A program made the translations under genes and the position numbers. 64,000 nt of DNA from NCBI GenBank assembly GCA_030789695.1, contig CM061142.1:607733659-607797658 (forward strand), written 5' to 3'. This DNA is from Scilla litardierei. Taxonomy: Eukaryota > Streptophyta > Magnoliopsida > Asparagales > Asparagaceae. Positions 16,430-59,652 of the stretch are shown here, in pieces. Every line of letters starts with the position of its first letter. Within the stretch, counting starts at the first letter, position 1. A model generated the notes under the pieces. That model was given only the letters and a program-made list of their open reading frames with translations. It did no database searches and was not told where the DNA came from.

Positions 16430-16589
16430 GCGGGGGCCGCGCATGCGCGTACCCCCTCTGCAACAAATTATGACGTCCACTCTCCCACTTGGGGAGATGG
16501 TAGGCACACGCACCTCCAGAGTGCAATGGAGGCCATGAACCTAGGCCTAGGCCTTCTTGATCACCCAATGACCCCGTCCAGGTAAGTAT
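16430..16589 (-). ncRNA. U1: U1 spliceosomal snRNA, array copy 1
   Basis: U1 snRNA is the RNA of the U1 snRNP, which recognises 5' splice sites by base pairing. On the minus strand the copy starts ATACTTACCTGGACGGGGTC at 16589, the signature 5' end of U1. Stem-loop I has the GATCAAGAAG loop (U1-70K site). Stem-loop II has ATTGCAC (U1A-type site) between CCTCC and GGAGG arms. Stem-loop III is CTCCCCAAGTGGGAG. The Sm region reads ATAATTTGTTG. Stem-loop IV (GGGGGTACGCG...CGCGGCCCCC) ends at about 16430, giving 160 nt, near the usual plant size. The promoter has USE and TATA at the expected places. This copy has no obvious defect. The Tekay A LTR lies 283 bp downstream. Confidence 0.95.
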
Positions 16590-16613
16590 GGATCATGGTT
16601 AGCCGTGCATCCA

Positions 16614-16665
16614 ATTTAATACACATCTCACCCCATCTAATCTCCCCACAATGTCGATGTGGGAC
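16614..16665 (-). promoter_or_regulatory. U1 copy 1 promoter (USE and TATA)
   Basis: On the minus strand, USE GTCCCACATCG lies at 16665-16655 and TATTAAAT at 16621-16614, with 33 bp between them. The start point is 24 bp below the TATA-like box. The spacing is that of Pol II-type plant snRNA genes. Confidence 0.88.
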
Positions 16666-17752
16666 TAAACCCTCGTTTCACTGGCTTTCTACAGTCCATA
16701 CACACCCAATCTTCCAACCCCCCATTTGGACACAAATTACCACGTACAAGTAAGGTTCATGGGACAACAATAAACAAATGCCTTACAAAGATGAAAAATG
16801 TACTCTGATTAACTGAAACTTAATTTGTGCTTGTGACTATGTGGGCGTGTAAACACCTCTACTTGGTCAAATTAGGCAGAGAAAATAAAAGGAAAAAAAC
16901 GTCTTGCATAGTAACATTTGCCTACATACCAAGATTGCCATGTTGAAGTCATCTATAAAATGCAAAGCTGGTATCATAGTTAAGATGACAACAAAAAAAC
17001 AAACGCATTGCAACAGTCCGTCTAACCAACTAAACTCAAAGATGAATATAACTTACAAGAAAAGGATTCTAACTTTCTTACGGGAAAAAACAAAACATAA
17101 ACGTTAACAAGATTATACCTCAGCTTTCTGCACTAATCCATGCTCTCCAAAGATTTGTAACTTGATTTACGTTAATCTAAACAAATCTAAGATGAATATA
17201 ACTCACGTGATTAAAAATGAAGCCGAAAATTAGAGAAAAACTAATAACATCATCGATTAGAGATAATAAACACGAAGAAAATGGTAGAACGGTATGATTA
17301 AACTAGATAGGCCGGTAAACAATATTGTTGTTTAAAGTTATTTACCTTGGAAAAAGCTAATTGGAATACATAGCTTTTATAGTTAGAAATTGAAGGGGTT
17401 TTGGGTATTTACTTTTCAAATATTACTTATTTTGTAATTTACCATACAAGCCTACCATATTATTTAAATACGTTTCAAACAAATTTTGGCAAATTGAAGA
17501 CCAAATCTTTCGGTTGAAGAACCCAAATGGCCCAAATCTTTTGGAAAATAAAGTATGAAAATCCCATTTAATTTAGCTTGAATGAAAAGTCTTCTAGCAA
17601 ACTCTCTTTAACTAAAATTAGTAATCTTTAGACTAAGTAGCATAGTTACATGGATCATACTATAATAAAGATCGCATGAAACAATTGAAGTTATGGATAG
17701 ATGAAGTCAGGACGAAGACATGGGCCAATAAAATATTTAGATTAAGGAATGG

Positions 17753-17912
17753 GCAGGGGCCGCACGTGCGCGTTCCCCCTCTGCAACAAATTATGACGTC
17801 CACTCTCCCACTTGGGGAGATGGTAGGCCCACGCATCTCCAGAGTGCAATGGAGGCCATGAACCTAGGCCTGGGCCTTCTTGATCACCCAATGACCCCGT
17901 CCAGGTAAGTAT
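17753..17912 (-). ncRNA. U1: U1 spliceosomal snRNA, array copy 2
   Basis: This is a full-length 160-nt copy with the 5' end ATACTTACCTGGACGGGG, GATCAAGAAG loop, ATTGCAC loop, CCAAGTGGGAG stem-loop III and ATAATTTGTTG Sm region. Stem-loop IV reads GGGGGAACGCG...GCGGCCCCTGC and still pairs. The CCCCTGC ending is the closest of all copies to the usual plant U1 3' end. The promoter is intact. No obvious defect is seen. The Tat element is inserted upstream of this gene, between it and copy 3, about 590 bp beyond the USE. Confidence 0.95.
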
Positions 17913-17936
17913 GGATCAAGGTTAGCCGTGCATCCA

Positions 17937-17988
17937 ATTTAATACACATCTCACCCCATCTAATCTCCCCACACTGTCGATGTGGGAC
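17937..17988 (-). promoter_or_regulatory. U1 copy 2 promoter (USE and TATA)
   Basis: USE GTCCCACATCG at 17988-17978 and TATTAAAT at 17944-17937, 33 bp apart, minus strand. Confidence 0.88.
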
Positions 17989-18575
17989 TAAACCCTCGTT
18001 TCATTGGCTTTCTACAGTCCATACACACCCAATCTTCCAAGCCCACATTTGGACACAAATTACCACGTTCGAGTTAGGTTCATGGGACAATAATAAACAA
18101 ATGCCTTACAAAGATGAAAAATGTATTCTGATTAACTGAAACTTAATTTGTGCTTGTGACTATGTGGGCGTGGAAACACCTCTACTTGGTCAAATTCGGC
18201 CAAGAAAATAAAAGGAAAAAAATGTCTTGCATAGTAACATTTGCCTACATACCAAGATTGCCATGTTGAAGTCATCTATAAAATGCAAAGCTGGTATCAA
18301 AGTTAAGATGAAAACAAAAAAAAGAAACGCATTGCAACAATCCATCTAACCAACTAAACTCAAAGATGAATATAACCTACAAGAAAAGGATTGAAACTTT
18401 CTTACGGGAAAAAAAACAAAACATTAACGTTAACAAGATTATACCTCGGTTTTCTGCACCGATCGATGCTCGTGAAAGATTTCTAACTTGATTTACGTTA
18501 ATCTAAACTAATCTAAGATGAATGTAACTCACATGATTAAAAATGAAGCCGAAAATTAGAGAAAAACAAATAACA

Positions 18576-18580
18576 GCATC
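18576..18580. repeat. Target-site duplication (left) of the Tat element
   Basis: GCATC precedes the LTR. The right side has ACATC (27023-27027), one mismatch. Uninterrupted units read AACAGCATCGATTA or AACATCATCGATTA here. Confidence 0.7.
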
Positions 18581-19495
18581 TGTTACGCCTATTTGCCCGA
18601 GGCCCGAAAGACACGAGCCCCGAGACCCGACCGCCGGTCAAGAGCCCATCTGTGCACTCAGGCTCACTCGATAAGGCCCTATAGGGGACCCCCCAAATGT
18701 CGATCCGACCCGGCCCCGGTAACACACCGGTCACTCGCCCACTCCTGCGATAACCGCCCCCTCGATCCCGCTACCACTTAATGGCAGTTATAGGGAGGTG
18801 CTGGCATGGCACAGGGAGCGGCGACGGGGGGCGGATCGAGGGGGCACGATTGAGGGCGGGCGAGCGACGTGGGTCGGGGGCAATCACGGCGGAGGTCTAT
18901 AAAGGGGCTAGGAGGATGACAGGACAAGGGACCCGCCTCTCAGGTATCTAGAAACTAAGGTACTCCATCAACGACCTAGTTCCCCCATTTGATGTCCTTC
19001 CTCCCCCGCTCGCGCTGTGAGACGCCGTTCCGATCTCCTCACGAGTCGAACCGTCTCCGCCGGGCCTCCTCTTTCAGATCTCTGTCTGACTTAGGCATCG
19101 GAGGGGATTTGGCCGGAACCAAGGTCCGGCCCCCTGACGAGTGTTCTCGTCTACGCAGGAGGGCATCAGATCCACGGGCCGATGCTTCCCCTCCGCCCCT
19201 CGCCGACCACGCAACCAGCTGGACGATCGAGGCTTCCCCTCGTCGTCCGACCGCCGAGGCCGAGCGTAACCGACCAAGGCCGAGCGTCTCGACCCGGGCC
19301 GAGGCTACCCCTCGCCCTACCAACGGCCGAGGACCCCGATTCAACCCAGTCGACGTGCTCTACATCGTCTGCTGATCCGACTCGAGCCTCGACTACACCA
19401 ACTCGACTCGCCCGAGGGACCCAAACGGGCCCCTTGACCACGTTGACCGGGTTGTCCACGGTCAACGCTTTGTAGTGAGAAAACACTCTGAAACA
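18581..19495 (+). repeat. 5' LTR of the Tat element
   Basis: It runs TGTTACGCC...CTGAAACA and is followed by the primer site. A TATAAA lies at 18898-18903. It is nearly identical to 26101-27022. Confidence 0.95.
18898..18903 (+). promoter_or_regulatory. TATA box of the Tat 5' LTR
   Basis: TATAAA sits within GGAGGTCTATAAAGGGG, followed by a GC-rich leader. The 3' LTR has the same box at 26425-26430. It should drive the pol transcript. Confidence 0.7.
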
Positions 19496-19497
19496 TC

Positions 19498-19514
19498 TGG
19501 CGCCGTCTGTGGGA
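19498..19514 (+). promoter_or_regulatory. Primer-binding site of the Tat element
   Basis: TGGCGCCGTCTGTGGGA starts two bases after the 5' LTR end. Plant Tat-lineage elements commonly carry this TGGCGCC-type site. I cannot confirm the exact tRNA without a tRNA set. Confidence 0.8.
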
Positions 19515-19550
19515 ACGAACTGTCCCACGAAGAAACAAACCACATCTGCG

Positions 19551-19646
19551 ATGACGCGACCTCCCCCATCTCGACGAAAGGGGAGCAAGGCCCTGACGCG
19601 AGGCGACAGGGCCCGCCATCGTTGGCAAGAATGGGCGTGGGCCTGA
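19551..19646 (+). pseudogene. Residual start of Tat gag
   Basis: An ATG 36 bp after the primer site opens a frame of only 31 codons, basic and Arg-rich, that ends in TGA. A full gag of well over 1 kb with a zinc knuckle should lie between here and the protease, but the protease begins about 90 bp later. The simplest reading is an internal deletion that removed nearly all of gag. No CCHC motif is present. The pol frame opens at 19647, right after this stop. Confidence 0.6.
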
Positions 19647-21605
19647 TGCGAGGAGGATCGTGAGGAAAGGGCCGGGAGGCCCTCCCCGTCCCCACCGGTC
19701 GGGAGACCGAGTGCATCCGTAACGGCGCGCAGCTTGGACGTGGCTTTGGTGGTGTCCGTGGTCATTGACGCTACCATGGTACGGCGGCTGCTTGTCGACA
19801 CCGGCAGCTCCTGTGATGTCCTCTTCCTGTCAACCCTGGAAAAGATGGGGCGGCGGAAAGAAGACATACGACCTCGCTCGGGTCCCGTGGTAGGATTCAC
19901 GGGTCACTCCACCCCCATCGTCGGCACGATCCATCTCCCGGTAACGCTCGGAGACGCGCCGGACTCGGTGACCCTGGCGGTGGAATTCATCGTATTGGGG
20001 ATCGGGTCGGAATACAATGGGATCATTGGCCGACCCCTACTCAACGCCGTCGGCGCGGTAGTCTCAACCCTCCATCAGACTATCAAGTTCCGAACGCCAG
20101 GGGGGATGGGGCAAGTCGAAGGCGACGCGGGGAGACCGAGTATCTGCTATCAACTGGCGGAGGAAGGTCCCGAGGATCGTCTAGCCGACCGGATGGCCGC
20201 GCTCGACTTGAGGAGTGGGCCTAGGCCCGCCCCTGCGGAGGAGCAAGAGCATATCCCGGTCACGGACGTCGAGGGCCGGTTCGTCTCGATCGGGAGAGGG
20301 CTGAGCCAGGACCTGAGGGATCAGCTGATCGAATGCCTGGAGGCGAACCTGGACATCTTTGCTTGGTCACTGGAGGACATGCCCGGCGTAGACCCCCAGG
20401 TGATCGTCCACCAGATCAACGCCGACCCCAACTTCAAGCCGGTCAGGCAGAAGAAGCTTAACCTGGGCGGCGAGAAGATGAAGGCAGCCTCCGAGGAAGT
20501 GGAGCGTCTCCTTGATGCCGGCTTCATACGAGAGGTCTGGTACCTGGAGTGGCTGTCGAACGTAGTGATGGTCAAGAAGCCCAACGGGAAGTGGCGAATG
20601 TGCGTGGACTTCAGTGACCTCAACAAGGCCTGTCCCAAGGACAGCTACCCCCTGCAGCGCATCGACCACCTGGTGGACAACGCCTCGGGGTACGAGATGC
20701 TTAGCTTCATGGACGCTTACTCAGGGTACAATCAAGTCCAGACGGACCCCCTGGACGAAGAAATGACAGCCTTCACGATGGACCGGGGGACTTACTGCTA
20801 CAAGAAGATGCCCTTTGGCTTGAAGAATGCAGGGGCCACCTACCAGAGAATGGTCAACAAGGTTTTTAGCTCCCAGATCGGGAGGAACCTGGAAGTCTAC
20901 GTCGACGACATGCTTGTCAAGTCAAGGCGACCAGAAGACCACATCGCCGACCTGCGGGAGACCTTCGAACGGTTGCGGCGACACCACATTCGACTCAACC
21001 CCGCGAAGTGCACGTTCGGGGTAAGATCTGGCAAGTTCTTGGGATTTATGATAACTAACCGTGGCATTGAGGCTAATCCTGACAAGATCGAGGCGCTGAT
21101 CAACATGCGTGAGCCGACGACGATCAAAGAGCTGCAGAGGCTGAACGGGCGCATCGCAGCCTTAGGGCGATTCCTTTCCAAATCGGCAGAAAGATCGCTC
21201 CCCTTCTTCAAGGTCCTGAGGAAAGCGATCGCGGAACCTTCAGACAATAGGAAGACGATACTATGGGACAAAGACTGCTCCAGGGCGTTCGGAGACCTCA
21301 AAGAGTATCTTCGCAGCCCGCCTCTCCTGTCCAAGCCACGGGAAGGGGAGTCGCTGAGCCTTTACCTGGCGTGCGCGGAGGAAGCTGTGAGTTCGGTGCT
21401 GATCCGGGAAGACGGTGGGGTGCAGTGGCCGGTATATTACACGAGCCGGATCTTGAAGGGGGCGGAGGTGCGATACTCGCCCATGGAGAAACAGGCGTAC
21501 GCCCTCGTCCTCTCGGCACGAAGGCTCCGACCCTATTTCTAGGCCCACACCATACTGATCCTGACCGACTCACAACTGGAGCAGAACCTCAAGAGATTCG
21601 ATCGA
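19647..21605 (+). pseudogene. Tat protease, reverse transcriptase and RNase H
   Basis: This is the first part of pol. The frame opens after a TGA at 19644 and has no ATG near its start, as expected after loss of gag. The protease shows LLVDTGSSCDVLF (active-site DTG). The RT shows VVMVKKPNGKWRMCVDF, MDAYSGYNQ with a catalytic Asp, and VYVDDMLVKS (Y-V-D-D box). The RNase H part reads SLYLACAEEAVSSVLIRED and MEKQAYALVLSARRLRPYF. A TAG at 21540-21542 follows. The next codons, HTILILTDSQLEQNL, continue the domain in the same frame, so this is a single nonsense change. The segment is GC-rich with mostly G or C in third positions. Confidence 0.9.
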
Positions 21606-22380
21606 ATGGGAAGGATGCTAAACTGGGGAGTGGAACTGAGCGAGTTCGACCTCCGATTCAAACCGTGCACGGCCATCAAAGGGCAGGCTCTAGCCGACTT
21701 CATCGCCGAGTGCACAATGGAAGGAAATGGCCCCCCGGAGGAAGAAGACCCATCGACGGTAATTGCTCAACCCTTGTCCTTTCTTTCGGCTGACCACTTC
21801 CAGCCAGGGGATCCAGGAGCGTGGATAGTCCATGTGGATGGGTCGGCCACACAGTCAGGAGGCGGGGCTGGGATCGCAATCCGGTCTCCGGAAGGAAACA
21901 TTGTGGAATACGCGTTACGGTTCGAGTTCCCAGCCACGAACAACGTGGCGGAATACGAAGAGGTGATCAATGGCCTGAGGCTGGCCCTGGAGCTCAGGGC
22001 CGAGTCCATCCGCCTCTTCAGCGACTCGAAGCTCATCGTCAACCAACTCTTGGGGAGTTACGAGGCACGGGAGGAGGCGATGCAGAGATATCTCCCTGTC
22101 GCCAGAGCGGCGATGTCCAAGTTCAAGAACGTGGAAGTCTTGCACCTCCCGCGATCAGAGAATGCACGGGCAGATGCGTTGTCGAAGCTGGCCTCGTCCT
22201 CGCCAAAGGAGCTGGTCCGCACCATGTACATGGAGAACCTGCAGTCCCCCAGCACGGGGGAGCACGAGGTGATGGAAATCGACCAAGAACCCACCTGTAT
22301 GGACCCGATCATCCGATACCTCACTCATGGGGAGGTGCCGACCGATGGGGACGAACGCCGAACCCTGGAGAGAAAGGCGC
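21606..22380 (+). CDS. Tat second RNase H (aRNH) domain
   Basis: This is an additional RNase H domain of the archaeal/plant type, a hallmark of the Tat lineage, where the first RNase H has become a degenerate tether. The visible catalytic motifs are HVDGSATQSGGGAG (first Asp), NNVAEYEEVINGL (Glu), LFSDSKLIVNQL (second Asp) and NARADALSKLAS (last Asp). It spans roughly codons 75-200 of the open segment that starts at 21606. The same frame continues into the integrase without a stop. Position 21606 is only the first ATG after the upstream TAG; the natural protein runs through from the previous segment. Confidence 0.9.
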
Positions 22381-23543
22381 TCCGATACGTGATCCATGAA
22401 GGGACGCTCTACCGGAGACGCTGGACCAAGACGGATATCCTCCCATACTTGAAGTGCATCGGACCGCAGGAAGCTGACTACGTCCTACGGGAGGTTCACG
22501 AATGGATCTGCGGGAATCACCATGGGGGCAAGATGGTCGCACAGAAGATCTTGAGGCAGGGATACTACTGGCCGACCCTGGCCCAAGATGCAACAAGCTA
22601 CGTCCAAAAATGCCAAGAATGCCAGAGGTATGCCCACCACATCTCGACTCCCCCGTCAGAGCTCATCCCTATCGTGAGCCCCATCCCCTTTGCGAAATGG
22701 GGGCTCGACATCATCGGACCGTTTAAACCGGGACGAGGGCAGCGGAAGCATCTGATTGTGGCGGTGGACTACTTCACCAAGTGGATCGAGGCCGAACCGT
22801 TGGCCACCATCACGTGGAAGAAAGCAAAAAGCTTCGTATGGAATTCCATCATCTCCAGATTCGGAGTGCCACGGGCCATCGTCACAGACAACGGGAAGCA
22901 GTTCGACTCCGCAGGGTTTAAAGATTTTTGCGAGGAATGGGGAATCAAGCTTCTCTTCGCCTCTGTAGCGCACCCCCAGACCAACGGAATGGCGGAAGCG
23001 GCCAACAAGTGCATCATAGAGCCCCTCCGAAAGAAAGTGAAAGACGCCGAAGGGAACTGGCCAGAAGAGCTCCCCGGGATACTCTGGTCATACCGGACGA
23101 CCCACAAGGAGGCCACTGGCGAGACCCCGTTCATGCTCACCTACGGGGCTGAGGCGATGGTGCCGGTCGAATTGGGCGAAGAATCTCTCCGCCTCAAATA
23201 CTTTGACGAAGACAGGAACTCGCAGGGTCTGGGGCTCAGTCTGGAGCTCCTCGGCGAGCGACGGGAGCAGGCACTGGCCACCATCATCCGCCAGAAGCAG
23301 AAGGTGGCCCGATACTACAACGCTCGGGTGCGGGGAAGAAGCTTCCACCTTGGGGACTTGGTCCTCCGGAAAGCGGGCTTCAACTCTGATACCGCTCGCA
23401 AAGGGAAGCTCGCGGCCAGATGGGAGGGGCCCTACAAATTCGTCGAGGTCCTCGGACCCGCAGCCTACCGACTAGCCAATATGGAGGGGAGGATTCTCAC
23501 TCACACCTGGAATACGGAACATTTACGCAAGTACTTTCAATAG
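22381..23543 (+). CDS. Tat integrase
   Basis: This is the DDE integrase of the element. The HHCC zinc finger is intact: EVHEWICGNHHGG supplies the two His, and QKCQECQRYA the two Cys. The catalytic core shows Asp in WGLDIIGPF, Asp in IVTDNGKQF and Glu in QTNGMAEAANK. The C-terminal GPY/F-like module (WEGPYKFVEVLG...AYRLANMEG) ends at TEHLRKYFQ and TAG (23541-23543). There is no chromodomain. No internal stop is seen, so this is the best preserved retroelement domain in the window. Its 3' end faces the end of the antisense gene about 110 bp away. Confidence 0.92.
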
Positions 23544-24357
23544 ATGTATCGTTTCCTATGAAATAAATCTATTTTGAATTCATTCCTTTCCAGATAAAGC
23601 AAAAAGATATACAGAGAGGCACACGAAGAGGCCGAGGGGCATTCCCCTCCCTTATTTTTCTCCGGGGGCACCGGTGGAGCCACAGGCTGGCAGCCCACTA
23701 GGGTCTCCCCCCTTACTCCGTTCGACGTCAGGGTACATCTGAAGATCCTCGAAGTTGACCCCCGAGAGTGGGAACTTCTTTTGGATCTCGGACTGACACC
23801 GGCGAAGCCCTTCTCGAACGCCTCCGATAAGGCGGTCTCAACAAAGGATGTGGCATACTCCGCCACGGCATCCTGAGCAATCCTGGCCGGATCCACCTCC
23901 TCAAGCCCACGCATCCGGGCCTCTAAGGTCTCGATCTGGCGTTGGTGCTCCGCCCTCTCCTTCTCGATCTCCCGGGATTTCTCGCCAAGTTGGGCAAGAA
24001 GGACCCTCGCCTGCTCCTCCACCGCTTCTAGACGATCGGAGAGCTCCAAGGTCTCGGAGGCAGCAGCAGGGTTGGGGATCTGCTCAGCTCCACCAGACGT
24101 GTCGGCACCTCTTAAAAGCTCGGTGAGACGCGCCTCGGCCTCCGACTTTGCAGCCAGAGCCAAGGCTCTCTCTCGATCCGCCTCCTCCAGGGCAGAGGAC
24201 AGCTCAGTTACGCGGGAATCCAAGGACTGGACCCGTGCTTCCTCTAACTGACCTGCCTCCCCTTCTCGCCGGGGGCCTCAGGGCCTCGCCCGGCATCGGA
24301 TTTGGCTTTGGGAAGCGCCGCGAATTGACGCCTCATTGAGAGGCCCACCGAGGACAA

Positions 24358-24428
24358 CTGCACCAAAGCAACAAAGGTAAGACAGCGAAAGCAGCTGGAG
24401 AAAGGGGGGACAAGCAGAGACATACTAC
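24358..24428 (-). other. Intron 2 of the antisense gene (71 nt)
   Basis: Donor CAG|GTAGTATG and acceptor TTTGGTGCAG|TTG on the minus strand. Phase 0. Confidence 0.7.
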
Positions 24429-24964
24429 CTGCTGACCAGCCTGAATCACGAAGGTAGCCAAACAGTCACCTCTGACTCCATCCAACACCACCTGATCGGG
24501 AGGGAGACAACAGTTCTCGGCCACTCGAGCGGCGGCTCCGCGGCTCGAAAACACCGACTCCTTCTCCCCCACTGGGAAGCGTGGACGAAGAAGACCCTCC
24601 CCTGACGAAGGGAACTCGCCAGGAGTGGAGTGGAACGCGCCAAGATACCGACCGTAGGCATCAGGAAGAGAACCGTCCAGGAGAGGTGAAGGGCCGACCC
24701 ACGGCCAGGCAACCTCAACGGGGGCGGGTTGAGGTCGATCAGCAGTCGGCAGGACGTCAACCCCCTCGACCCCCTCACGGACCTTCTTGGAGGACCCCAG
24801 CAAGGGGAGAGAGGGAGATGACACCTTCTTCCTTTTTGAGCCTCCGGTCGCGGTCCCGACCCGCTGCTTCTTCCGGACCTCCAGCACATGATCCCTTCTG
24901 CGCGGATCCGGATTTGGGACCTGCACGAGAGCACTGGCGGGAGGGGGACCAAGAGGGAATCCAC

Positions 24965-25039
24965 CTGCACTCAAAGGAGAAATGAGAGACAGAGCAGAGC
25001 CCGGACGACCTCGAAGGGCGAACGCTCAGAGAAGCTTAC
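24965..25039 (-). other. Intron 1 of the antisense gene (75 nt)
   Basis: Donor CTAG|GTAAGCTT and acceptor TTTGAGTGCAG|GTGG on the minus strand. Phase 1, and the frame is kept across it. Confidence 0.75.
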
Positions 25040-25852
25040 CTAGGGGCCACACCGTCTGACGCAAGTTGCGGTCACTAAAGAGGACGTCGATCGAGCGCTC
25101 CCTCGCAGGAATCGCCAGCATGTCCTTCGCCGTCTGCTGCTCGGCGACCGTCGGCTCACCCAGATCGAGGATGACTGCATCGGCCGCCTCCCACCGAACC
25201 GGGAAGGGTACACTCGACGTGAACGTGACAAACACGTATTCCCCCTTCCAGCGTTTCAGGGAGCTCGGCAACCCCAGCACCAGGGTCATCTTCGGGCGGG
25301 CGCTGATGTAAATCCACGCCCCCGATTGGTGGTGGCTCAGGCGGTAGAACTGGCAAAGAGGCGAAGAGAAGGTGCCACTCCCCTCAGCATGCAGACAACG
25401 ATGAACCCGACGAGGAGCCCGACGGCGTTGGGGCAGAATTGACACAGGCACACGTTGTGGGCCTGAAGGAACTCAACGATAAAAGGATGGAGCGGGAAAC
25501 GAAGCCCGAAGCGAAAACACTTCTCGTATATCCCAACCTCGTTGGGGCCAGGAAAGCAGATCCGCTCGTCAGCCCCAGGGGCACGAGCCGAGTAAGGCGG
25601 AAGCAGGTAGGCGGAGCGCATGCTCCCGATGGCAGTGGCACAGATCGACGAAGGCCACGACAAGACCTCTGGGGGCACCCCGAAAAGATCATCCCCGTGC
25701 CGACAAATCACCGAAGGAGGGCTACCCGCCAGACCCGGAGCCGCGTCGCGCTCCGACCGACCCAAACCCGTGGCAGAGGAAGACGACATGAGGCAGAGCT
25801 CAGGCGGAATAGGGATCAGCACAAAGGAGAAAACGACGGGATGGCGGCTCAC

Positions 25853-26100
25853 GAACCCCTCGGCTTCTCAACTTAAGACGACCCCGCGAGCGGTGGGGAT
25901 AAGCTTGCAGCTACAACGTGGCAGCATCAGAGGACCGAAGGTGCTTCGGAGCCCGCGCCTTAAAAGTATCGAACGGGCCAACTCATGATGACGACTAATA
26001 AATGAGTCGGCATCGACTGGCGAGCCTGTCATGGTCGGCGGAAGTCACATCGGCCGAGCCGAACCGGGCAAAGCTGACCGACCCGACCGATGGGGGCAAT
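25853..26100 (+). promoter_or_regulatory. Spacer and polypurine tract before the Tat 3' LTR
   Basis: No gene is seen here. GATGGGGGCAAT directly before 26101 is the likely polypurine tract. On the other strand this stretch should hold the promoter of the antisense gene, but I see no clear TATA box. Confidence 0.65.
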
Positions 26101-27022
26101 TGTTACGCCTATTTGCCCGAGGCCCGAAAGACACGAGCCCAGAGACCCGACCGCCGGTCAAGAGCCCATCTGTGCACTCAGGCCCACTCGATAAGGCCCT
26201 ATAGGGGACCCCCCCCCCCCAAATGTCGATCCGACCCGGCCCCGGTAACACACCGGTCACTCGCCCACTCCTGCGATAACCGCCCCCTCGATCCCGCTAC
26301 CACTTAATGGCAGTTATAGGGAGGTGCTGGCATGGCGTAGGGAGCGGCGACGGGGGGGCGGATCGAGGGGGCACGATTGAGGGCGGGCGAGTGACGTGGG
26401 TCGGGGGCAATCACGGCGGAGGTCTATAAAGGGGCTAGGAGGACGACAGGACAAGGGACCCGCCTCTCAGGTATCTAGAAACTAAGGTACTCCATCAACG
26501 ACCTAGTTCCCCCATTTGATGTCCTTCCTCCCCCGCTCGCGCTGTGAGACGCCGTTCCGATCTCCTCACGAGTCGAACCGTCTCCGCCGGGCCTCCTCTT
26601 TCAGATCTCTGTCTGACTTAGGCATCGGAGGGGATTTGGCCGGAACCAAGGTCCGGCCCCCTGACGAGTGTTCTCGTCTACGCAGGAGGGCATCAGATCC
26701 ACGGGCCGAGGCTTCCCCTCCGCCCCTCGCCGACCACGCAACCAGCTGGACGATCGAGGCTTCCCCTCGTCGTCCGACCGCCGAGGCCGAGCGCAACCGA
26801 CCGAGGCCGAGCGTCTCGACCCGGGCCGAGGCTACCCCTCGCCCTACCAACGGCCGAGGACCCCGATTCAACCCAGTCGACGCGCTCTACGTCGTCTGCT
26901 GATCCGACTCGAGCCTCGACTGCACCAACTCGACTCGCCCGAGGGACCCAAACGGGCCCCTTGACCACGTTGACCGGGTTGTCCACGGTCAACGCTTTGT
27001 AGTGAGAAAACACTCTGAAACA
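26101..27022 (+). repeat. 3' LTR of the Tat element
   Basis: It starts TGTTACGCC and ends CTGAAACA. It differs from the 5' LTR by about 12 substitutions by eye (mostly transitions), a longer poly-C run near 26210-26220, and one extra G near 26350. Confidence 0.95.
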
Positions 27023-27684: not shown

Positions 27685-27708
27685 GGATCAAGGTTAGTCG
27701 TGCATCCA

Positions 27709-28999: not shown

Positions 29000-29023
29000 G
29001 GATCAAGGTTAGCCGTGCATCCA

Positions 29024-30105: not shown

Positions 30106-30129
30106 GGATCAAGGTTAGCCGTGCATCCA

Positions 30130-36140: not shown

Positions 36141-36141
36141 G

Positions 36142-49136: not shown

Positions 49137-52100
49137 ACATGATGAAGGTAATAAAAGTGAGTTGTACAAAGTAATTAGATATATCTTCGTTTCTAATTTT
49201 TCTATTCTAATCTATGATTTTATTTTTTATTTTCAGGACACACGGCCCTAGCTTCATGTGTAAATTTTGTTGGTTTTAAATGCCTGTGTGAGAGATGGTG
49301 TTTTTGAAATTGGACTACATGGTTGTTCAATCCAAAATGTATTTTTGTGTATATTTGTTCATAGTTAAGGGTTTTTTCTTTTAGCATATAGTTTAGGTTG
49401 TGTGATATTATTATAGTCGATGTAAAAAAATGTTGTCTTAAGTACTATTTTGGTTGAAAATATGATTTGGGGAAAACTCCCTTCAAAAAATCACTGAGTA
49501 CAACTTTATCCTTTGTAGAAGAAGGAAAATTTTATTAATATCTTTGTCTCAATGATGTTTCTTATTTATTTCTTAAGAAGGAAAGTTTTACTAATATTTG
49601 AAGCTAAATTTGGTGTTGATCTAAATAATAGCTTAGAGGGTGTTGATCCCCTTTGGACTTTTTTTATTTTTTCCCTGTTGAGGAAAGTTGCCTTTCAGGT
49701 CAATGGCCACGAGCAGCCTTAATTCATGTTCAATGGAAGCTAGGATGGTGGAAATTCTAGCAAGTGGTCCATGGACCATGGGGGATGAATGAATTCGTGC
49801 CAGGTATATATCATTTTATTCATATAGGACAGCTTTATATGGGTCTAAATTTTGTTTTTTGTGTTTTGTATTTTGATAACAGGATTTTCATTTTGATATG
49901 TTTTTTGGAGCTTTGCAAAAATACATGTAGCTGGTTTTTATAACAAGCATCAGAATGTGGAACCAAAAAACAAACAATAACATTAAGGTGATTTTGTTTG
50001 CCAAGCTCCACATTCAAGTGTGAACAATCCATCAGAATTTATTTGCAAAATTCGAGCTTGGTTCTCACTATTTGTGTTTTGTATCTCAAACAACAAATTT
50101 CACACCAAAATTCATTAAAACCTCAATAGCCGACGTGTACGTAGATTTCCAGTATTATTTTGTTTATGGGGAAAAATTACTCTTTTTATTCTAGATTTAT
50201 GAAAGTTTAAGATTTCATAGCAATTGCTCATGTATGCAATGCTCCCGGAATTTTGTGAGAAAGGTTTCATTCGGGCTATATTCGCAGTTTTGCAAGCAGA
50301 TTTTGTGATCATGGATCAAATGATGTTGGTTCTCACTGTTAGTATTCTGATAACAGGTTTTGGTAGACATCACTTTATGTGTTTTTCACCTAATGCACGT
50401 CTTTTTCATGGTGTTTGATTCACTTCATCTAGGACTTGACACCAACTCTTATTGTGGTGAATCATGGTTGATACCCCTTCATCAAAATTTGTATCCCCCA
50501 CAAATCTTCCTTTGACTTTCCTTTGAGAGACATTGTACAAATATTGACATAGCGTGCTGGAAAATTGCTTCATTTGGGTATTTAGGCCTTGATTTCCTCG
50601 ATGTGGCTTTTGATTTATAGAACTGATATGGGTAAAAGCGTAGTAATATTCAGTTGAATTTGTTCTTGGATATGTGATGGGTGACAGTGAAGGTGCTCAG
50701 AGCTTGGCAAGTTTTTTTCCTTTTATCCTTTTTCCCCTCTGTATTATATATGGGTATTGAAGTTTCGTATCAAGAATGCTGCCATGCTTTGTAAATCATG
50801 TGTTATTAAAACTATATGTTGAAGAACTTGATGATTGACAATTGGTTCACTAGCAACCTGAATGTAAGATGCACATTTTTTTCTTCAATTGGTTGTCCCC
50901 TGATGTCGGCCAACTGTTTGTAGCAAAGCCTATAAAAAATGTTTTCTATTATGTATCTTTGGTGAAACTAAGGATCGACTAGTTCAAACATCATGTTTCA
51001 GATTTGTTTTGCAATTTCTGTCACAAATATGCATATTATATAGCATATGGCAACAAATATTATGGTTTATTAGGATGGCCAGAAGACTAGCATTAAAAGG
51101 TTCAAAGCAATTTCAAATTAGATAGGAATGGGGCTAGGGAAAAAAATATCCAGGTCATATTTAGTGCTTTAGGGAGATTGGACAGGTCTGTTGAGAAAAG
51201 ATTGGGTCCAATATGAATTAACAATTTTCCTACTTGCATTTTGCTTTTGATGAGATTAGGTGGTTGAAAAATTGAATCTTGGTGGGACTGTGATAATTTG
51301 TGAACCCAAAAATAGAGAAGAGGATGTAGATAACAGGTCATGGCATAGTAATCCTCATGTACGCATGCTATGAACATTGTGTATTCTGTTGACACTGATC
51401 AATTCTTATACTTAAAAAAATTATTATGTATTCTATGCAAATCATCCGTAAAGAACAAGAACTTTATATGAGCATGGAAAGTGGTAAATTAAGCATACTT
51501 TGATATTCAATTGAACTTTCTGACACCGAATTCTTGACTACATTCCATATATAAGATACTTTTGAGTGATATGTTGCTCCTTAAAAACTCTGGCTTATGT
51601 TGATACATTCCATATCAAGAATGAGCATACGTTAATACATGCATCCAGATTGAATAGCAAACATGGTTGTGAAAAACTCTTGCTTCCTTCGTAGCTGCAG
51701 ACAGATATACATGCATACCGATATGTCGCTACAAAGACAACTGCAGACCGATATACGTGCAGACCGATTTCGGTTAAATCATTGCTTAAAGTTCAGTTTT
51801 TAGTGGGTTGTTTTGGAATATTCATCATGAAATCATCCTTTTTTGGAAATGAAATCATCCTTCACTCACTGGGGTTGCATTGTTGCTTAAACCTATGTTT
51901 TCAGTGGTTAAGTTATAGGATTTATTATTTGGGATGGGCTTATCTGTTAATGTATACGAACCTACATACGTAATTTATGATGTTTAAGAATCATAGGTAT
52001 TGTATTGCAATTAAATAGTTGGGAGGTTCATTGCAATGGGATTATAAAGGGCTCTATCTTAATGGTTAAGCTTGGATTGGGTTGATATCATTCAGTCCAT

Positions 52101-54061
52101 TTTGTAGTGCATGTTTCTGCTTTTTGTGTCTCAATTTTTGAAGGCTAAGATTTAAATAGAGAAAAAACTGCATGCCAACATAATTAATTGTTTAAATGTA
52201 TGCAAATTCAAGCTAGAGTTGTCACATATTTATTGGAAGGTAATGATGTTATGGGAGATGCAAAACCATGGTCTGGGAAAAGTTTAGCTTTCTAGATACA
52301 TGTAGTATATGAAATGTTCCCTTTGCAGCAAATACTATGATAGCAAGTTCAGTTAAATAACAAACAAGTAATGGGAAAACTTTTGCTTTCTTGATACCTA
52401 CAGACCGATATACCGATATGTTTCTGTAAGAGAACTTGGGGCAATTTAACTGGTTCTATATGAGATTGTAAAGGGAATGTTGTGTATGTAGCTACAATCA
52501 TTCGAAACAATATGTAGTGTTTACATCTTAGAATTGGTTGATGGGGGAGTTTAGTTGGAGCTTTGCCAGACCTACATAATCCCAACACAAAATCAGGTTC
52601 TTGATTACATTACCTGTATATTTTAATCTCACATCCTTGCATTTAGAAATTCCATAAATGCTTATGAAGTAAATTAAAAATACCCCCAAAAAAGTAAACC
52701 GATATATGAGTGCGAAGACTAAAATAAAGAAACATCTATATACATCAAAAGCTTTGTATGGCCAATATTTGTTTATAAAATGAATAATCGCATTTGGAAA
52801 GGATAACATATTTGGTAAGATGAACAGATATTGTAGCATGTAGATTTTGTTAGTTCTATGAATTTGTTTATGTTATTTTAATCAGTCCATGTATAATATG
52901 GATAGCTCTCAATTGTGAACTTCCCATGAATTTGCTTCTTCATCAAATATTGTTATCAACTTCTATGTTTTTTGTATTTAATTTTAAAATCTGTCAGCTT
53001 TGGGGTTTTGGTCCAATTTTAGTTGTCTATGTGGCTCCATCTTCTGTTGCATGTTCTCAAGATTTATTTGTGTGTGTATGAAGCAAATTTATAGCGCACT
53101 TGGGTGCAACCCATATGTTTGTTGTAATGCTGGCAAAGAATCCAATGAGAAAAGTTACATCTCAGTAAACTGTTCGAATCAAAATTTTGAACAATTATTT
53201 TTAGCAGAAAATTTTATCTTATATTATATTTTGATCTTAAATTTTGAATTCTTTGGATCAACCAAGAAGAAAACATTAGCGAAGCAGAAAAAAAGGAAAA
53301 ACACAACAAAAAGACATAATCTCGGTTTTGAGTTCGAGGTAAAACTTTGAACAAAAATTGTACTTTCATCAAATAAATATTGATCTTATCTTATCATGTA
53401 TTTTGATCTTACATTATGAATACATTTCATCAATTAAGGAGAAGAAATCAGGGAAGAAGAAGTAAAAGGAAAAAAATGTGATGTGCACCTTGCGCGGTGA
53501 ATCCAGTTTCAAAGAAATCGGTCAAAGTGTGTCATAAAGTTTTGATCTTAGTGGTTATTGCATGTTCTCGCTATTTTTGTGTGTGGATGATTTCTGCGAG
53601 TTGAGCATCGCTGGGTATATTCCAGCACTTAAATTGGAATGTTACCTTCAGCACTTAAAATATTTTACCTTTAGCACTTCAAGTATGCATCTTGCACTGT
53701 CTTTGATCTTAATTTCAGCAGGGATGGTAGCTGGATTAATGGCACACTAAGTGATCACCCATAATGGGGGAGCAATCATCAATGCTTTGAGGTAATCAAT
53801 TACCACTCCTACCCCCAAAAGTTAACTAAATCTTAATTTTAGAAGTGTCAAAATTTTGAATCTGAAAGCTCATTAGAAGTGTCCTAATCATCCTTCTATA
53901 TTGTTGGATTTGAGCTTTAGCTTTGCGAGATGTTATGTTGGTGAAAATTTGAAATGGTATTAAAATAATCTAGATGTTAGTTATTTGTCTGCATCCAAAA
54001 TTTTAATCTGAAAAAAAATATTATGAGCATGTAATTGCAGTTGTTTGATTCTTTGTACGTA
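49137..54061. other. AT-rich intergenic stretch, no gene recognised
   Basis: Nearly 5 kb without a supported gene. Open frames up to about 116 codons occur but are A/T-driven and show no domain. Around 53215-53300 and 53395-53470 a block (TTTTGATCTTA...AAGAAGAAA) is present twice in diverged form. Short words CAGACCGATATAC recur near 51700-51770 and 52400. This stretch may be Helitron interior or captured introns, but nothing in it proves that. Confidence 0.6.
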
Positions 54062-54640
54062 GGTGGTACATGCACATTCTAAAAATTTGTTCAAAAATGT
54101 GGATGTTGTTTGTAGTTCTCCCATCATGTACACTTTTTTATGCTTGCAAGAGTATACATGCACATTCTAAACATTCTAAAATGTGCATTTCTAAACATTT
54201 TTTATACTTATAAATAATGTACAGGCACATTCTACAAATTTGGTCAAAAATGTGGATGTTGTTTGCAGTTCTCCCATCATGTACACTTTTTATGCTTACA
54301 AGAGTATACATGCACATTCTAAACGTTCTAAAATGTGCATTTCTAAAAAAAATTTATACTTATAAATTATGTACATGCACATTCTACAAATTTGTTCAAA
54401 AATGTGGATGTTGTTTGCAGTTCTCCCATCCTATACACTTTTTATGCTTACAAGAGTATACATGCACATTCTAAACATTCTAAAATGTTCATTTCTAAAC
54501 ATTTTTTATGCTTATAAAAGTGTACATGCACATTGTAAAAGTTTGTTCAAAAATGTGGATGTTGTTTGCAGTTCACATATATTAGTTGTTTTATGTGCAT
54601 GTTTATTTCAGTTCATAGAAATGTGCTTTTCTAAACATTT
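54062..54640. repeat. About 152-bp tandem repeat, nearly four units
   Basis: Units start at about 54067, 54220, 54371 and 54522. Each contains GTACATGCACATTCTA, AAAAATGTGGATGTTGTTTG and AAATGTGCATTTCTAAACA blocks. The fourth unit is partial. The open frames inside are a result of the period and not genes. Confidence 0.9.
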
Positions 54641-55232
54641 TTAGTTCAGGAAAAAAAGTCTTGGAATGTAAATTTAATGAAAAAAAAGTCTTTCTACAAA
54701 TTTTTATTTCAATATTGCCTATAATGAAACTCAAAGCCAACACGCCGGTATTATGCATAATACATGGTGGGAGACATGCAATGTTTTTGTTCAGTGTTAA
54801 ATTAACCTGTATGTATCACGTGCAGTATGCATAATACATGATGTTAAATTAAGTCGTAAGTATTATGCAAGTTAAATTAAGGATGTTCTCATATAGTATA
54901 AAACTTTAACAGCATGTTCTCATTTTTTAACAAACTTGAATAATACATTATGTAAGTTCCCAATCTTTAATACATGATATGCTTACTCGGGTGATTTGAT
55001 AGGATTGTTACTAACATAATTACCTACATGATTGCATTATGGTGTATTCTCTCTTTGTTGTTTTTACAGGTCTTTTGTGAGGAAAGGTGAAGACCAATTA
55101 AATAGATAATGCTTTCAGGAATCTTTATGTTCAGCATTATTGTTATGCTCAACAAGTTTAAAATCCCTTTTTAAAATCCCTTTTTAATAAACAGGTCTCA
55201 TGTTTTAATATGTGCATTTATTTTTCCTTCAG
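54641..55232. other. AT-rich stretch, no gene recognised
   Basis: Words such as TATGCATAATACATG recur near 54755-54845. No exon-like segment with a known protein match is seen before the acceptor at 55231. Confidence 0.6.
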
Positions 55233-55471
55233 GGTTTGGCCATCAGCACTTTCCAGGTCATCTTGGTCACAACTATTGTTGGAGGTAATTAAACATTATC
55301 AACAAAGTTGTGCTTCAAGATATACATCCTTTTTACTATTGACGGTCGCTAACTGAAGTTTGTGTTTTTGCCAGTGTTATTACATGAGTACTTCCCTACG
55401 TTCATAGAACGAATTATCATGTTTACACCATTGATTGGGTTACCCTTACTACTCTTCTTTGTGCAAGCCCA
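55233..55471 (+). pseudogene. Captured fragment of a BASS-family transporter gene (two exons)
   Basis: BASS proteins are plastid sodium-coupled metabolite transporters of the bile acid:sodium symporter family. Exon-like segment 55233-55284 follows a TTTTTCCTTCAG acceptor and encodes GLAISTFQVILVTTIVG. It ends at GT. The next segment, 55375-55471, encodes HEYFPTFIERIIMFTPLIG. After a one-base shift the residues TTLLCASP follow, and it ends at a GTAAGT donor. STFQV...VG-x-L-x-HE-FFP...E-x-I...TPLIG...TTLLCASP is the pattern I know from BASS1-like proteins. No other exon of the gene is found nearby, so this is a fragment, with the frameshift showing decay. Confidence 0.7.
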
Positions 55472-55739
55472 GTAAGTCTGTTAACTTTCTTTTGAAGTAC
55501 AACCGCAATAGAAATGGTGATGCTTTAGTTGACAAAATTATGAAGTGCTAACTCACATATACATGTGAATTAGGAGTTATTATTAGTAGTTATGTGGTTT
55601 TTGATATTTTTTATGCTTTTATTTCTTGCTGCTCAATTCAACGGTTAATTGCATGTGGATAATTGCACAAATAACTCTCGAATTCATTTGTAAGAATAAA
55701 TAGATTTGGTGAATAAAAAACCTTTAGTTGACATCTCCT
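55472..55739. other. Short AT-rich stretch, no gene
   Basis: It continues directly from the BASS exon donor and may be its captured intron. Confidence 0.45.
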
Positions 55740-55990
55740 ATTAAAGGTTGCAAGAATGACATGAGGCCGAGCTCTACCTTAAATCACTCAGCAATCGGGT
55801 CATCGCCCTTGAGATCAGGTTCGATCAGGCTTTCGACCCGAAGATCACTGACATCGATGGGAAGCAACAGTGGATGACAGAGTTCAGTGGGAAATGGATG
55901 GCGGAGGCGAAAGTCGGGGAGGAGAGGAACGACTAATGGATGGTGGCCATGTGGCAGGCCTCCGATGAAGGCCAGGACTGGCGGAGATGA
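55740..55990 (+). pseudogene. Coding-like GC-richer fragment of unknown origin
   Basis: One frame reads HEAELYLKSLSNRVIALEIRF, DQAFDPKITDIDGKQQWMTE and FSGKWMAEAKVGEERND before a TAA, then WMVAMWQASDEGQDWRR. Base composition is more GC-rich than either side, with many charged residues and a Trp-rich tail, so it looks like an exon remnant. There is no family I can name. Confidence 0.35.
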
Positions 55991-56774
55991 GGGTGGTCAA
56001 ACCATGCTGTCGGCCACTGATTAAATAAGCAAACTACATTTTCCTTACTTTGAGGTATTTAAATCTGTGTCAAAGCTTTGATCTTCTTACTGTAATGTTG
56101 AGTTTTTAAATATAAATTAGCAAAAAAATTTTATTTCTTAGTTAAAATTAAGATGATATTGGGGGTGATTGAGCAAGCTACATTTTCAGTTTTTTATTGT
56201 CATTAGGGTTACGCTATGGTGTTTTATTGTCATTGGCGGGAGAAAGACAGCCTATGACCGTCGGGCCAAGGGGGAAATAAAACGGGAGTTTGATCCCCTA
56301 GCCACAGCTCATGCCCTATCGTTGACATTGAGTCCTTGCGCATGGGAACGGCTTGGAGGAAATGTTGGGTGCTATCATTGAGGCCTTAATGCTCTCGGTT
56401 GCGGAGGGTGTTGGACATGGCCCACCGTCCGAAACTGGGCAGACCTAGCGTATCATCCTGGGCTTCGACCGGAATATCGAGCTCATGGGATGCTAGGTAC
56501 CACTATTAGAGGCACTGTCTCACCCTGGGTCGAGTCAAATATCAAGTGTCATGAGTGCTCTAGCCCGTGTTAGCGGGGATTCATTTCTTGTCTTTTTCAT
56601 TTCTTTCCGTTATTTCTACACTACCCACACATATCATCCGCGTAGCTCTCACAAAACCTAGGCGAGGCTGGTAGCCATCAAGCCATCCACCTCCCTGTGT
56701 TCGGTATACCCGCACCCTACACTAACCGTGCACTTGCGGTAAAACGACACCGCACCCAAACTGTAAACGGGGTG
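55991..56774. other. Stretch without a recognised gene, right border of the foreign block
   Basis: The left half is AT-rich. From about 56210 to 56770 the sequence is balanced and non-repetitive in this window. Similarity to the U1 repeat unit starts abruptly at about 56774, inside stem-loop IV of U1 copy 8. Confidence 0.55.
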
Positions 56775-56935
56775 CCGGTCACGCGCGCGTGTGCGTACCC
56801 CCTCAGCATCAAATTATGACGTCCACTCTCCCACTTGGGGAGATGGTAGGCCCACACACCTCCAGAGTTCAACGATGGCCATCAACCTTGGCATGCGCCT
56901 TCTTGATCACCCAATGACCTCGTTCAGGTAAGTAT
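56774..56935 (-). ncRNA. U1: U1 snRNA, array copy 8, degenerate
   Basis: The 5' end ATACTTACCTG is kept but is followed by AACGAGG. Stem-loop I loop GATCAAGAAG is kept. In stem-loop II the U1A-type motif is lost (ATCGTTGAACTCTGG in place of ATTGCACTC). The Sm region reads ATAATTTGATGC. Stem-loop IV is diverged (GGGGGTACGCACACGCGCG, then TGACCGGC). It lies at the border of the foreign block. It is almost certainly a pseudogene. Confidence 0.9.
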
Positions 56936-56955
56936 GGATCAAGGTTAGCCGTGCA

Positions 56956-57011
56956 TTTTATTTTAAACCCATCTCACCCCTTCTAATCACCCCACACTGT
57001 CGATGTGGGAC
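56956..57011 (-). promoter_or_regulatory. U1 copy 8 promoter
   Basis: USE GTCCCACATCG at 57011-57001 and TTTAAAATAAAA at 56967-56956, 33 bp apart, minus strand. The promoter is better preserved than the gene. Confidence 0.8.
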
Positions 57012-58098
57012 GAAACCCTGGTTTCACTGGCTTTCTACAATCCGCACACACCCAATCCTCCAAGACCACATTTGGACACAGATTACCACGTATGAGTTAG
57101 GTTCATGGGACAACAATAAGCAAATGCCTTACAAAAATAAAAAATGTAATCTGATTAACTGAAACTTAATTTGAGCTTGTGACTATGTGGGCGTGGAAAC
57201 ACCTCTATTTGGTCAAATTTGGCCATAAACATAAAAGGAAAAAAACATCTTGCATAGTGACATTTGCCTACATACCTAGATTGCCATGTTGAAGTCATCT
57301 ATAAATGCAAAGCTGCTAACATAGTTAAGAGGGAAACTAAAAAAACAAACGTATTGCAATAATCCATCTAATCAATTAAACTCAAGGATGAATATAACCT
57401 ACAAGAAAAGGATTCAAACTTTCTTACGGGTAAAAAACCAAACAAAAACGTTAACAAGATTATACCTCAACGTTCTGCACCGATCCATGCTCCCCAAAGA
57501 TTTGTAACTTGAATTACGTTAATCTAAACTAATCTAAGATGAATGTAACTCACGTGATTAAAATGAAGCCGAAAATTAGAGAAAAACTAATAACATCATC
57601 GATTAGAGATATTAAACTAGAAGAAAATGATAGAACAGTAAGATTAAACTATTTAGCCCAATAAACAATATTGTTGTTTAAAGATATTTACCAGGGAAAA
57701 AGTTAACTGGAATGCCTAGCATTTATAGTTAGAAATTGAAGGGGTTTTGGGTATTTACTTTTCAAATATTTCTTATTTTAAAATTTACCATACAAGCCTA
57801 TCATATTAGTTAAATACGTTTCGAACAACTTGATGCAAATTGAAAACCAAATCTTTAGGGTGAAGAACCCAAAAGGCCCAAATATTATGGAAAATAAAGT
57901 TTGAAAATCCCACTTAATTTAGCTGGAATGAAAAATCTTCTAGCAAACTCCGTTTAACTAAAATGAGTAATCCTTAGACTAAGTAGCAATGTTACATGGA
58001 GCATACTATGTTAAGGATTGCATGAAACAGTTGAAGTGATGGATAGATGAAGTAAGGACTAAGACAGGGGCCAATAATATATTTAGATTAAGGATTGG

Positions 58099-58257
58099 GC
58101 AGGGCCGCGCGTGCGCGTACCCCCTCTACAACAAATTATGACGTCCACTCTCCCACTTGGGGAGATGGTAAGCCCATGCACCTCCAGAGTGCAATGGAGG
58201 CCATGAACCTAGGCCTGGGCCTTCTTGATCACCCAATGACCCCGTCCAGGTAAGTAT
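58099..58257 (-). ncRNA. U1: U1 spliceosomal snRNA, array copy 9
   Basis: A 159-nt copy with ATACTTACCTGGACGGGG, GATCAAGAAG, ATTGCAC with intact stem-loop II, stem-loop III CTCCCCAAGTGGGAG, Sm region ATAATTTGTTG and stem-loop IV GGGGGTACGCGCACGCGCGG with a CCCTGC end. Its TATA box (TATAAAATA) is the most canonical of the array. No clear defect is seen, so it is a candidate active gene. Confidence 0.94.
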
Positions 58258-58280
58258 GGATCAAGGTTAGCCGTGCATCT

Positions 58281-58333
58281 TATTTTATACACATCTCACC
58301 CCATCTAATCTACTCACAATATCGATGTGGGAC
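58281..58333 (-). promoter_or_regulatory. U1 copy 9 promoter (USE and TATA)
   Basis: USE GTCCCACATCG at 58333-58323 and TATAAAATA at 58289-58281, 33 bp apart, minus strand. Confidence 0.9.
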
Positions 58334-59424
58334 TAAACCCTCGTTTCACTGGTTTTCTGCAATCCGCACACACCCAATCTTCCAAGACAACATTTGGACA
58401 CAAATTACCACGTAGGAGTTAGGTTCATGGGGCAACAATAAACAAATACCTTACAAAGATGAAAAATGTATTCTGATTAACTGAAACTTAATTTGTGCTT
58501 GTGACTATGTGGGCGTGGAAACACCTCTACTTGGTCAAATTTGGCCAAGAAAATAAAAGGGAAAAAACGACTTGCATAGTAACATTTGCCTACATACCTA
58601 GATTGCCATGTTGAAGTCATCTATAAAAAGCAAAGCTGGTAACATAGTTAAGATGAAAACTAAAAAAAACAAACGCATTGCAACAATCCATCTAACCAAT
58701 TAAACTCAAAGATGAATATAACCTTCATGAAATGGATTCAAACTTTCTTATGGGGAAAAAAGCAAAACATAAACGTTAACAAGATTATACCTCAGCTTTC
58801 TGCTCCGATCCATGATCCCCAAAGATTTGTAACTTGATTTACGTTAATCTAAACTAATCTAAGATGAAAGTAACTCACGTGATTAAAAATGAAGCCGAAA
58901 ATTTGAGAAAAACTAATAACATCATCGATTAGAGATATTAAACTAGAAGAAAATGGTAGAACGATAAGATTAAACTAGATAGCCCGATACACAATATTTT
59001 AGTTTAAATTTATTTACTAGGGAAAAAGTTAACTGGATTGCTTAGCATTTATATTTAGAAATTGAAGGGGTTTTGGATATTTACTTTTCAAATATTTCTC
59101 ATTTTGAAATTTACCATATACGCCTATCATATTATTTAAATACGTTTCGAACAACTTGATGCAAATTGAAAACCAAATCTTTCGGTTGAAAAACCCAAAA
59201 GGCCAAAATATTATGGAAAATAAAGTTTGAAAATCCCACTTAATTTGTCTGGAATGAAAAATCTTCTAGCAAACTCTGTTAAACTAAAATGAGTAATCTT
59301 TAGACTAAGTAGCAATGTTACATGGATCTTACTATATTAAAGATCGCGTGAAACAGTTGAAGTGATAGATAGATGAAGTCAGGACTAAGACATGGGCCAA
59401 TAATATATTTAGATTAAGGATTGG

Positions 59425-59576
59425 GTGGGGGCCGTGCGTGCGCGTATCCCCTCTGCAACAAATTATGACGTCCACTCCCCCACATGGGGAGATGGTAGGT
59501 CCACACGCCTCCATGGAGGCCATGAACCTAGGCCTGTGCATTCTTGATCACCCAATGACCCCGTCCAGGTAAGTAT
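59425..59576 (-). ncRNA. U1: U1 snRNA, array copy 10, stem-loop II deleted
   Basis: A 152-nt copy. The 5' end, GATCAAGAAT-type loop I, stem-loop III and Sm region are present. Stem-loop II reads GGCCTCCATGGAGGCG: the whole loop with the ATTGCAC U1A-type site is deleted, leaving only the closing arms. Stem-loop IV has one change in each arm. Tekay copy B is inserted 24 bp beyond its USE. It is probably non-functional. Confidence 0.93.
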
Positions 59577-59599
59577 GGATCAAGGTTAGCCGTGCATCT

Positions 59600-59652
59600 T
59601 ATTTTATACATATCTCACCCCATCTAATCTCCCCACACTGTCGATGTGGGAC
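59600..59652 (-). promoter_or_regulatory. U1 copy 10 promoter (USE and TATA)
   Basis: USE GTCCCACATCG at 59652-59642 and TATAAAATA at 59608-59600, 33 bp apart, minus strand. Sequence beyond the USE is replaced by the Tekay B LTR from 59677. Confidence 0.88.

Follow-up and report, generated by a model that had tools for sequence, protein, structure and literature searches.

A 64,000-bp stretch of the Scilla litardierei genome (assembly GCA_030789695.1, contig CM061142.1, positions 607,733,659 to 607,797,658), referred to here as the window, contains a tandem array of ten copies of the gene for U1 small nuclear RNA (snRNA), the RNA that helps to splice messages. The array is interrupted and flanked by mobile DNA. 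All ten copies are found on the minus strand and are matched by the Rfam U1 covariance model RF00003 along model positions 1-166, with scores of 78.6-128.1 bits (E-values from 4.7e-32 to 9.2e-18) against a gathering cut-off of 69.5 bits. Beyond these ten copies, no Rfam family has a gathering-level match in the window. The sequence CAGGTAAGTAT, which is the complement of the U1 5′ end, occurs without any mismatch at the same ten sites and nowhere else in the window, even when one mismatch is allowed; at this tolerance 0.99 sites are expected by chance. In addition, ATACTTACCTG is kept and the 5′ splice-site recognition sequence ACTTACCTG is exact in all ten copies.

Gene and spacer are repeated together as one head-to-tail unit of about 1.32 kb. 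Self-BLAST and unit mapping resolve three array segments, all in minus orientation. Segment A (16147..18580) covers the end of a unit, unit 1 and the start of unit 2. Segment B (27023..32844; the start is 27019 by self-BLAST) extends from the remainder of unit 2 to the start of unit 7, and segment C (56784..59677) holds units 8-10. From one 5′ end to the next, the interval measures 1315-1323 bp in five of nine cases; two intervals fall short of this (1106 and 1207 bp), and two (9772 and 24307 bp) span inserts. Pairwise identity between units is 87.4-95.6%, with units 7 and 10 being partial. The preliminary description of this locus, which had been made from the sequence alone, proposed ten minus-strand U1 copies with a common 5′ start in a 1.32-kb head-to-tail repeat, and each of these points is borne out by the model search and by the unit mapping. 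The spacer amounts to about 1.16 kb per unit, and U1 is all that Rfam finds in the unit. That the spacer might hold another RNA gene was considered and rejected, as a permissive Rfam search of 16147-18580 returned the two U1 copies and one match, to CRISPR-DR60, that scored well under its cut-off (20.3 versus 45 bits).

The ten copies differ in how well they have been kept. The 5′ end is intact in all of them, the loop string of stem-loop (SL) III in nine, and loop I, loop II and the Sm string AATTTGTT in eight each. Loop I, loop II and the Sm string are found together in six of the ten copies. These six (copies 1, 2, 3, 4, 5 and 9) carry every core RNA element tested, and the other four have lost at least one. 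All but one of the core-intact copies carry a mismatch in SL I-III or in the junction stem; in one of these five the CA of the 3′ box is missing as well. The array is thus not "clean", as had been suggested.

Copy 1 (16430..16589, 127.2 bits) and copy 2 (17754..17912, 123.1 bits) keep the core RNA elements, have one mismatch in the stem of SL II, and are preceded by an exact upstream sequence element (USE) and by the TATA-like box TATTAAATT. Loops and Sm string are also kept in copies 3, 4 and 5. Bases 15-16 are changed, one junction-stem pair is lost and the 3′ box CA is missing in copy 3 (27526..27684, 114.0 bits). Copy 4 (28840..28999, 124.6 bits) has one SL I stem mismatch and belongs to a unit that is shortened to 1106 bp by a spacer deletion. 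The highest score is that of copy 5 (29946..30105, 128.1 bits), which has one SL III stem mismatch. In copy 6 (31263..31421, 115.3 bits), part of a recombinant unit of 1206 bp, the Sm string has become AATGTGTT. Loop I reads GATTAAGAAG in copy 7 (32469..32628, 111.7 bits), which also has a degenerate USE and the TATA-like box CTTAAAATA. We consider copies 6 and 7 to be probably dead. Copies 8 and 10 are pseudogenes: copy 8 (56767..56935, 78.6 bits) has a changed loop II and Sm string, an altered SL IV and a 3′ flank that differs from that of the other copies, and copy 10 (59425..59576, 93.5 bits) has suffered an 8-nt deletion that takes most of loop II, together with a change of the last base of loop I, but retains the USE and TATAAAATA as TATA-like box. 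Copy 9 (58098..58257, 124.5 bits) is the only one which combines all tested core RNA elements with an exact USE and TATAAAATA, and it is free of mismatches in the junction stem and in SL I-III. It is the best candidate for an active gene. The outermost predicted pair of SL IV is G-G in copies 3, 4 and 9.

The promoter region was compared with the plant USE consensus RTCCCACATCG. The USE string TCCCACATCG is exact in nine copies and degenerate in copy 7, so the earlier report of a USE motif upstream of every copy applies in its strict form to nine of them. A TATA-like box is located at -32 in all ten copies, and the gap between USE and box is invariably 33 bp. According to PMC9845283 (here and for the other papers cited, we refer to excerpts of the source), USE and TATA box of plant snRNA genes are four helical turns apart in RNA polymerase II (Pol II) type genes and one turn less in Pol III type genes. 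By this rule the 33-bp gap indicates a Pol II type, as expected of U1. The USE-type promoter, like the families of the mobile elements, points to a plant host. The box itself is variable. TATAAAATA is restricted to copies 9 and 10, and among the six core-intact copies it is thus present in one; copies 1-5 have TATTAAATT, and TATTAAAAT, CTTAAAATA and TTTAAAATA occur in copies 6, 7 and 8, respectively. The 3′ box of plant snRNA genes, CA(N)3-10AGTNNAA (excerpt of PMC5079582), is found in exact form in none of the ten copies. With one mismatch it is found in eight, but as 38% of random 44-mers from the array do likewise, such matches are no evidence.

A consensus fold computed from the alignment has 48 pairs: the first three stem-loops (SL I-III) meet at a junction, the Sm region is left unpaired, and SL IV is formed as well. 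When copies were folded singly, with the 5′ end and the Sm region constrained to be open, the U1 fold was reproduced by copies 2, 3, 5 and 9; hence the U1-like structure expected from the preliminary description is present in the alignment consensus and in these four copies. SL I is paired in a different way in copies 1, 4 and 6, as is SL II in copy 4, and copies 7, 8 and 10 deviate in other ways. Compensatory changes occur in none of the 48 predicted pairs. The folding energy of copy 9, the sole copy tested in this way, is ordinary (z -1.17; 23 of 200 shuffled sequences fold as well), so that the support for structure rests on the Rfam model.

The Sm region reads TTTGTT(G), TTTGAT(G) or TGTGTT(A) in the ten copies, compared to TTTGTG(G) in the Rfam U1 consensus. 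All ten copies depart from the consensus within or directly after TTTGT, which possibly reflects a form of U1 peculiar to the lineage, or else an old lesion.

These Sm variants (TTTGTTG, TTTGATG and TGTGTTA versus TTTGTGG) would fit a wholly dead array, in which an already inactive U1 copy has been amplified like a satellite and no active gene is left. Such an origin would also agree with the lack of an exact 3′ box in all ten copies, with the abundance of mobile DNA and with the near-neutral divergence of the copies described below. We nevertheless regard it as unlikely, because copy 9 has every tested RNA element, an exact USE and TATAAAATA, and because copies 1, 2, 4, 5 and 9 score 123-128 bits.

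Divergence along the unit and invariant runs were analysed for eight of the ten units. Compared pairwise, units diverge by 5.3% within the first 135 nt of U1; the figure is 6.5% for U1 as a whole, 7.7% for the promoter and 8.3% for the spacer. Ranked by variable columns among like stretches, the first 135 nt are at the 8th percentile and the first 152 nt at the 13th. The 75 bp that precede U1 come out at the 63rd percentile, with no sign of lower variability than in the remainder of the unit. We also counted private changes, with units 7 and 10 excluded since their spacers lie only partly in the window, and with and without copy 8. In copies 1-6 and 9, private changes were found at 15 of 1049 positions in U1 and at 160 of 7236 in the spacer, which is not significant (p 0.11, odds ratio 0.64), and when copy 8 was added no difference between U1 and spacer was left (p 0.61). 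Copy 8 alone has 10 private changes in 150 positions of U1 and 39 in 1081 of the spacer (p 0.08). C>T plus G>A changes affect 7.6% per CpG base versus 2.7% elsewhere, a 2.8-fold bias which is as expected for DNA that has been methylated.

It is conceivable that the array is a working one, with most copies expressed as U1 variants whose differences are tolerated or even used. The exact 5′ end and the conserved promoter spacing in all ten copies would agree with this, as would the slightly, though not significantly, lower frequency of private changes in U1 than in the spacer among the seven copies, and in Arabidopsis it is normal for U1 genes to vary, according to the excerpt of PMC545797. However, four copies have lesions in loop I, loop II or the Sm string, a compensatory change is found in 0 of the 48 predicted pairs, and the TATA-like box differs from TATAAAATA in eight of ten copies, which makes general expression of the array quite improbable in our view.

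Unit 6 is a mosaic. Of the decided sites at which units 1 and 9 differ, 57 lie in the gene-proximal part, and unit 6 matches unit 1 at 50 of them; in the other part it does so at 18 of 44, and at all remaining decided sites it is like unit 9 (Fisher p 1e-6, for a split that was picked post hoc; the 2 of 103 diagnostic sites that match neither parent were dropped). The same switch is seen when nearest neighbours are determined for each 200-column stretch. The mosaic structure of unit 6 means that units recombine, by crossing-over or conversion within the array.

We favour, with a probability of about 60%, a decaying and recombining plant U1 snRNA gene array that would retain one copy in good condition and possibly a few more; perhaps one to four genes in it could be transcribed. 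Several observations weigh against this interpretation. The 11-nt 5′ end is unchanged in ten of ten copies and the USE is exact in nine, which is a hint of residual selection. In addition, the two longest invariant runs of the whole unit fall into U1, at +16 and +96. Finally, Arabidopsis U1 genes that are taken as active average only 87% identity (excerpt of PMC545797), so that variation alone is no proof of death. Invariant runs of such length were, however, also obtained in 13-20% of column-shuffle trials, and the same lack of variation is seen in 7.3% of all 11-column stretches. Together with the non-significant deficit of private changes, this suggests that constraint since duplication is weak or confined to a few copies.

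The array is broken at two places. Unit 2 is split by a gypsy element on the plus strand (18581..27022) that codes for reverse transcriptase (RT), RNase H, an extra RNase H of the RVT_3 type and integrase, a combination which presumably places it in the Tat group. Its long terminal repeats (LTRs; 18581-19495 and 26101-27022) have a Kimura two-parameter distance (K2P) of 0.013, and the flanking pentamers GCATC and ACATC are alike at four of five positions. The second interruption is a composite mobile block of 24 kb (32845..56783, no strand assigned), the left edge of which begins with TGTTATG. It carries Helitron_like_N and PIF1 helicase domains at 44930-47488 and a 500-bp repeat pair (33779-34278 and 40182-40681, K2P 0.031). 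Gypsy LTR insertions and a Helitron-bearing block had both been named in the preliminary description and are upheld, as are the U1 identity, the array and the USE promoters; the copia label, however, comes down to one sub-threshold match to a copia-type gag (24.2 bits, cut-off 27). Unit 7 retains 376 bp and unit 8 begins 17 bp inside U1, so that about 0.95 kb of unit is gone across the block if units of 1.32 kb are assumed. Two tandem repeats are found in the block, one of 283 bp with 3.2 copies (41882-42784) and one of 152 bp with 3.3 copies (54066-54574).

Both visible ends of the array abut LTRs of one gypsy family. The left element (1..16146, plus strand) has an LTR-type end ...TGACA that meets the array at 16146, and would be continuous with the RT, RNase H, integrase zinc and SH3_Tf2-1 domains at 1041-3740. 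The right element (59677..64000, minus strand) is in opposite orientation, has TGTCACGCC... at the array edge and an SH3_Tf2-1 domain at 63077-63562, and runs past the window. Thus the true ends of the array are out of view, and it may continue past both flanking elements. As array-derived DNA makes up 11,149 of 64,000 bp (17% of the window), as part of a unit is gone and as neither array end is visible, the proposal that the window was originally one U1 cluster exceeds the evidence. Nested in the left element is another LTR element (5505..14503) with 2.5-kb LTRs (K2P 0.020) and a perfect 5-bp duplication, GTTGA. Parts of it resemble, in opposite orientation, DNA within 33779-40682 (67-75% alike). 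A minisatellite of 50-60 bp occurs in both flanking gypsy copies (15166-15293 and 60496-60784) with differing copy numbers. With a substitution rate of 1.3e-8, K2P values of 0.013, 0.020 and 0.031 correspond to ages of about 0.5-1.2 Myr, the rate being an assumed one that may not be that of this species. The four insert junctions are at unit positions +443, -668, -216 and -101 from the U1 5′ end, and these differing positions speak against a target-site preference of the inserts.

The flanks match each other in inverted orientation (15180-16146 with 59677-60654, 14645-15324 with 60611-61307, and 2790-4124 with 62665-63999), amounting to about 3.0 kb in three main pieces over the 4.3-kb right flank. 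This might suggest that the array is the cargo of a large mobile element with terminal inverted repeats. We consider this very improbable and have rejected it, as gypsy domains and LTR-type ends (TG...CA) are present in the flanks, whose identity to each other is 77-89%. They are best read as two members of a single gypsy family that inserted separately and face in opposite directions, a situation that can mimic a terminal inverted repeat.

Under our preferred interpretation of a decaying, recombining array, the locus would have arisen by repeated unequal exchange of the 1.32-kb gene-plus-spacer unit, each unit originally having its own Pol II snRNA promoter with USE and TATA box 33 bp apart. 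Retrotransposon or Helitron-bearing DNA interrupts it at two places and borders both of its visible ends, and it would now be decaying. Copy 9 could still yield transcripts that enter the U1 small nuclear ribonucleoprotein, and so possibly could copies 1, 2 and 5, and the working U1 pool would come mainly from elsewhere in the genome. A more specific scenario, which is speculative and for which we see only a slim chance, is that homogenisation itself silenced the locus: unequal exchange may have spread a unit with a changed TATA-like box (TATTAAATT, now in copies 1-5) before the retrotransposons arrived. If true, concerted evolution would here have destroyed the very gene array on which it acted, with one copy left that has RNA and promoter intact.

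Arabidopsis has 14 U1 genes, seven of which belong to its seven U1-U4 clusters (excerpt of PMC545797). Its U1 genes share with the Scilla array the U1 RNA, a promoter with USE and TATA box, the multicopy state and the presence of some pseudogenes. In contrast to the Arabidopsis clusters, which consist of U1-U4 pairs 180-300 nt apart, the unit described here contains U1 only, has a spacer of about 1.16 kb and is present in ten copies. Repeated snRNA gene units are also known for primate RNU2 (U2) and sea urchin U1, as seen from titles cited in PMC4291461, and the RNU2 titles mention concerted evolution. As far as such titles tell, the Scilla array is set apart from these animal arrays by a unit divergence of 4-13%, by pseudogene copies and by breaks due to retrotransposons. 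Mobile DNA inside multicopy U1 loci is shared with the Dada transposons, which target U1 genes (excerpt of PMC3706591); unlike Dada, the inserts found here are at four differing unit positions and have no shared target site. The 20-base U1 5′ end has no exact match in the viral_contigs collection and none was returned by the literature search. A plant tandem array with U1 only was not among the literature matches listed, as judged from titles and abstract openings. U1 genes of tomato, soybean and wheat are the subject of older studies. The Scilla array is thus a known kind of locus in a U1-only plant setting that has no counterpart among the literature matches listed.

The locus does not indicate a new mechanism. 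With its datable retrotransposon breaks and its traceable recombinant unit, it would offer a place where rates of homogenisation and loss of small-RNA gene arrays can be tested, and it would be useful for asking whether plant U1 RNA variants come from decaying arrays.

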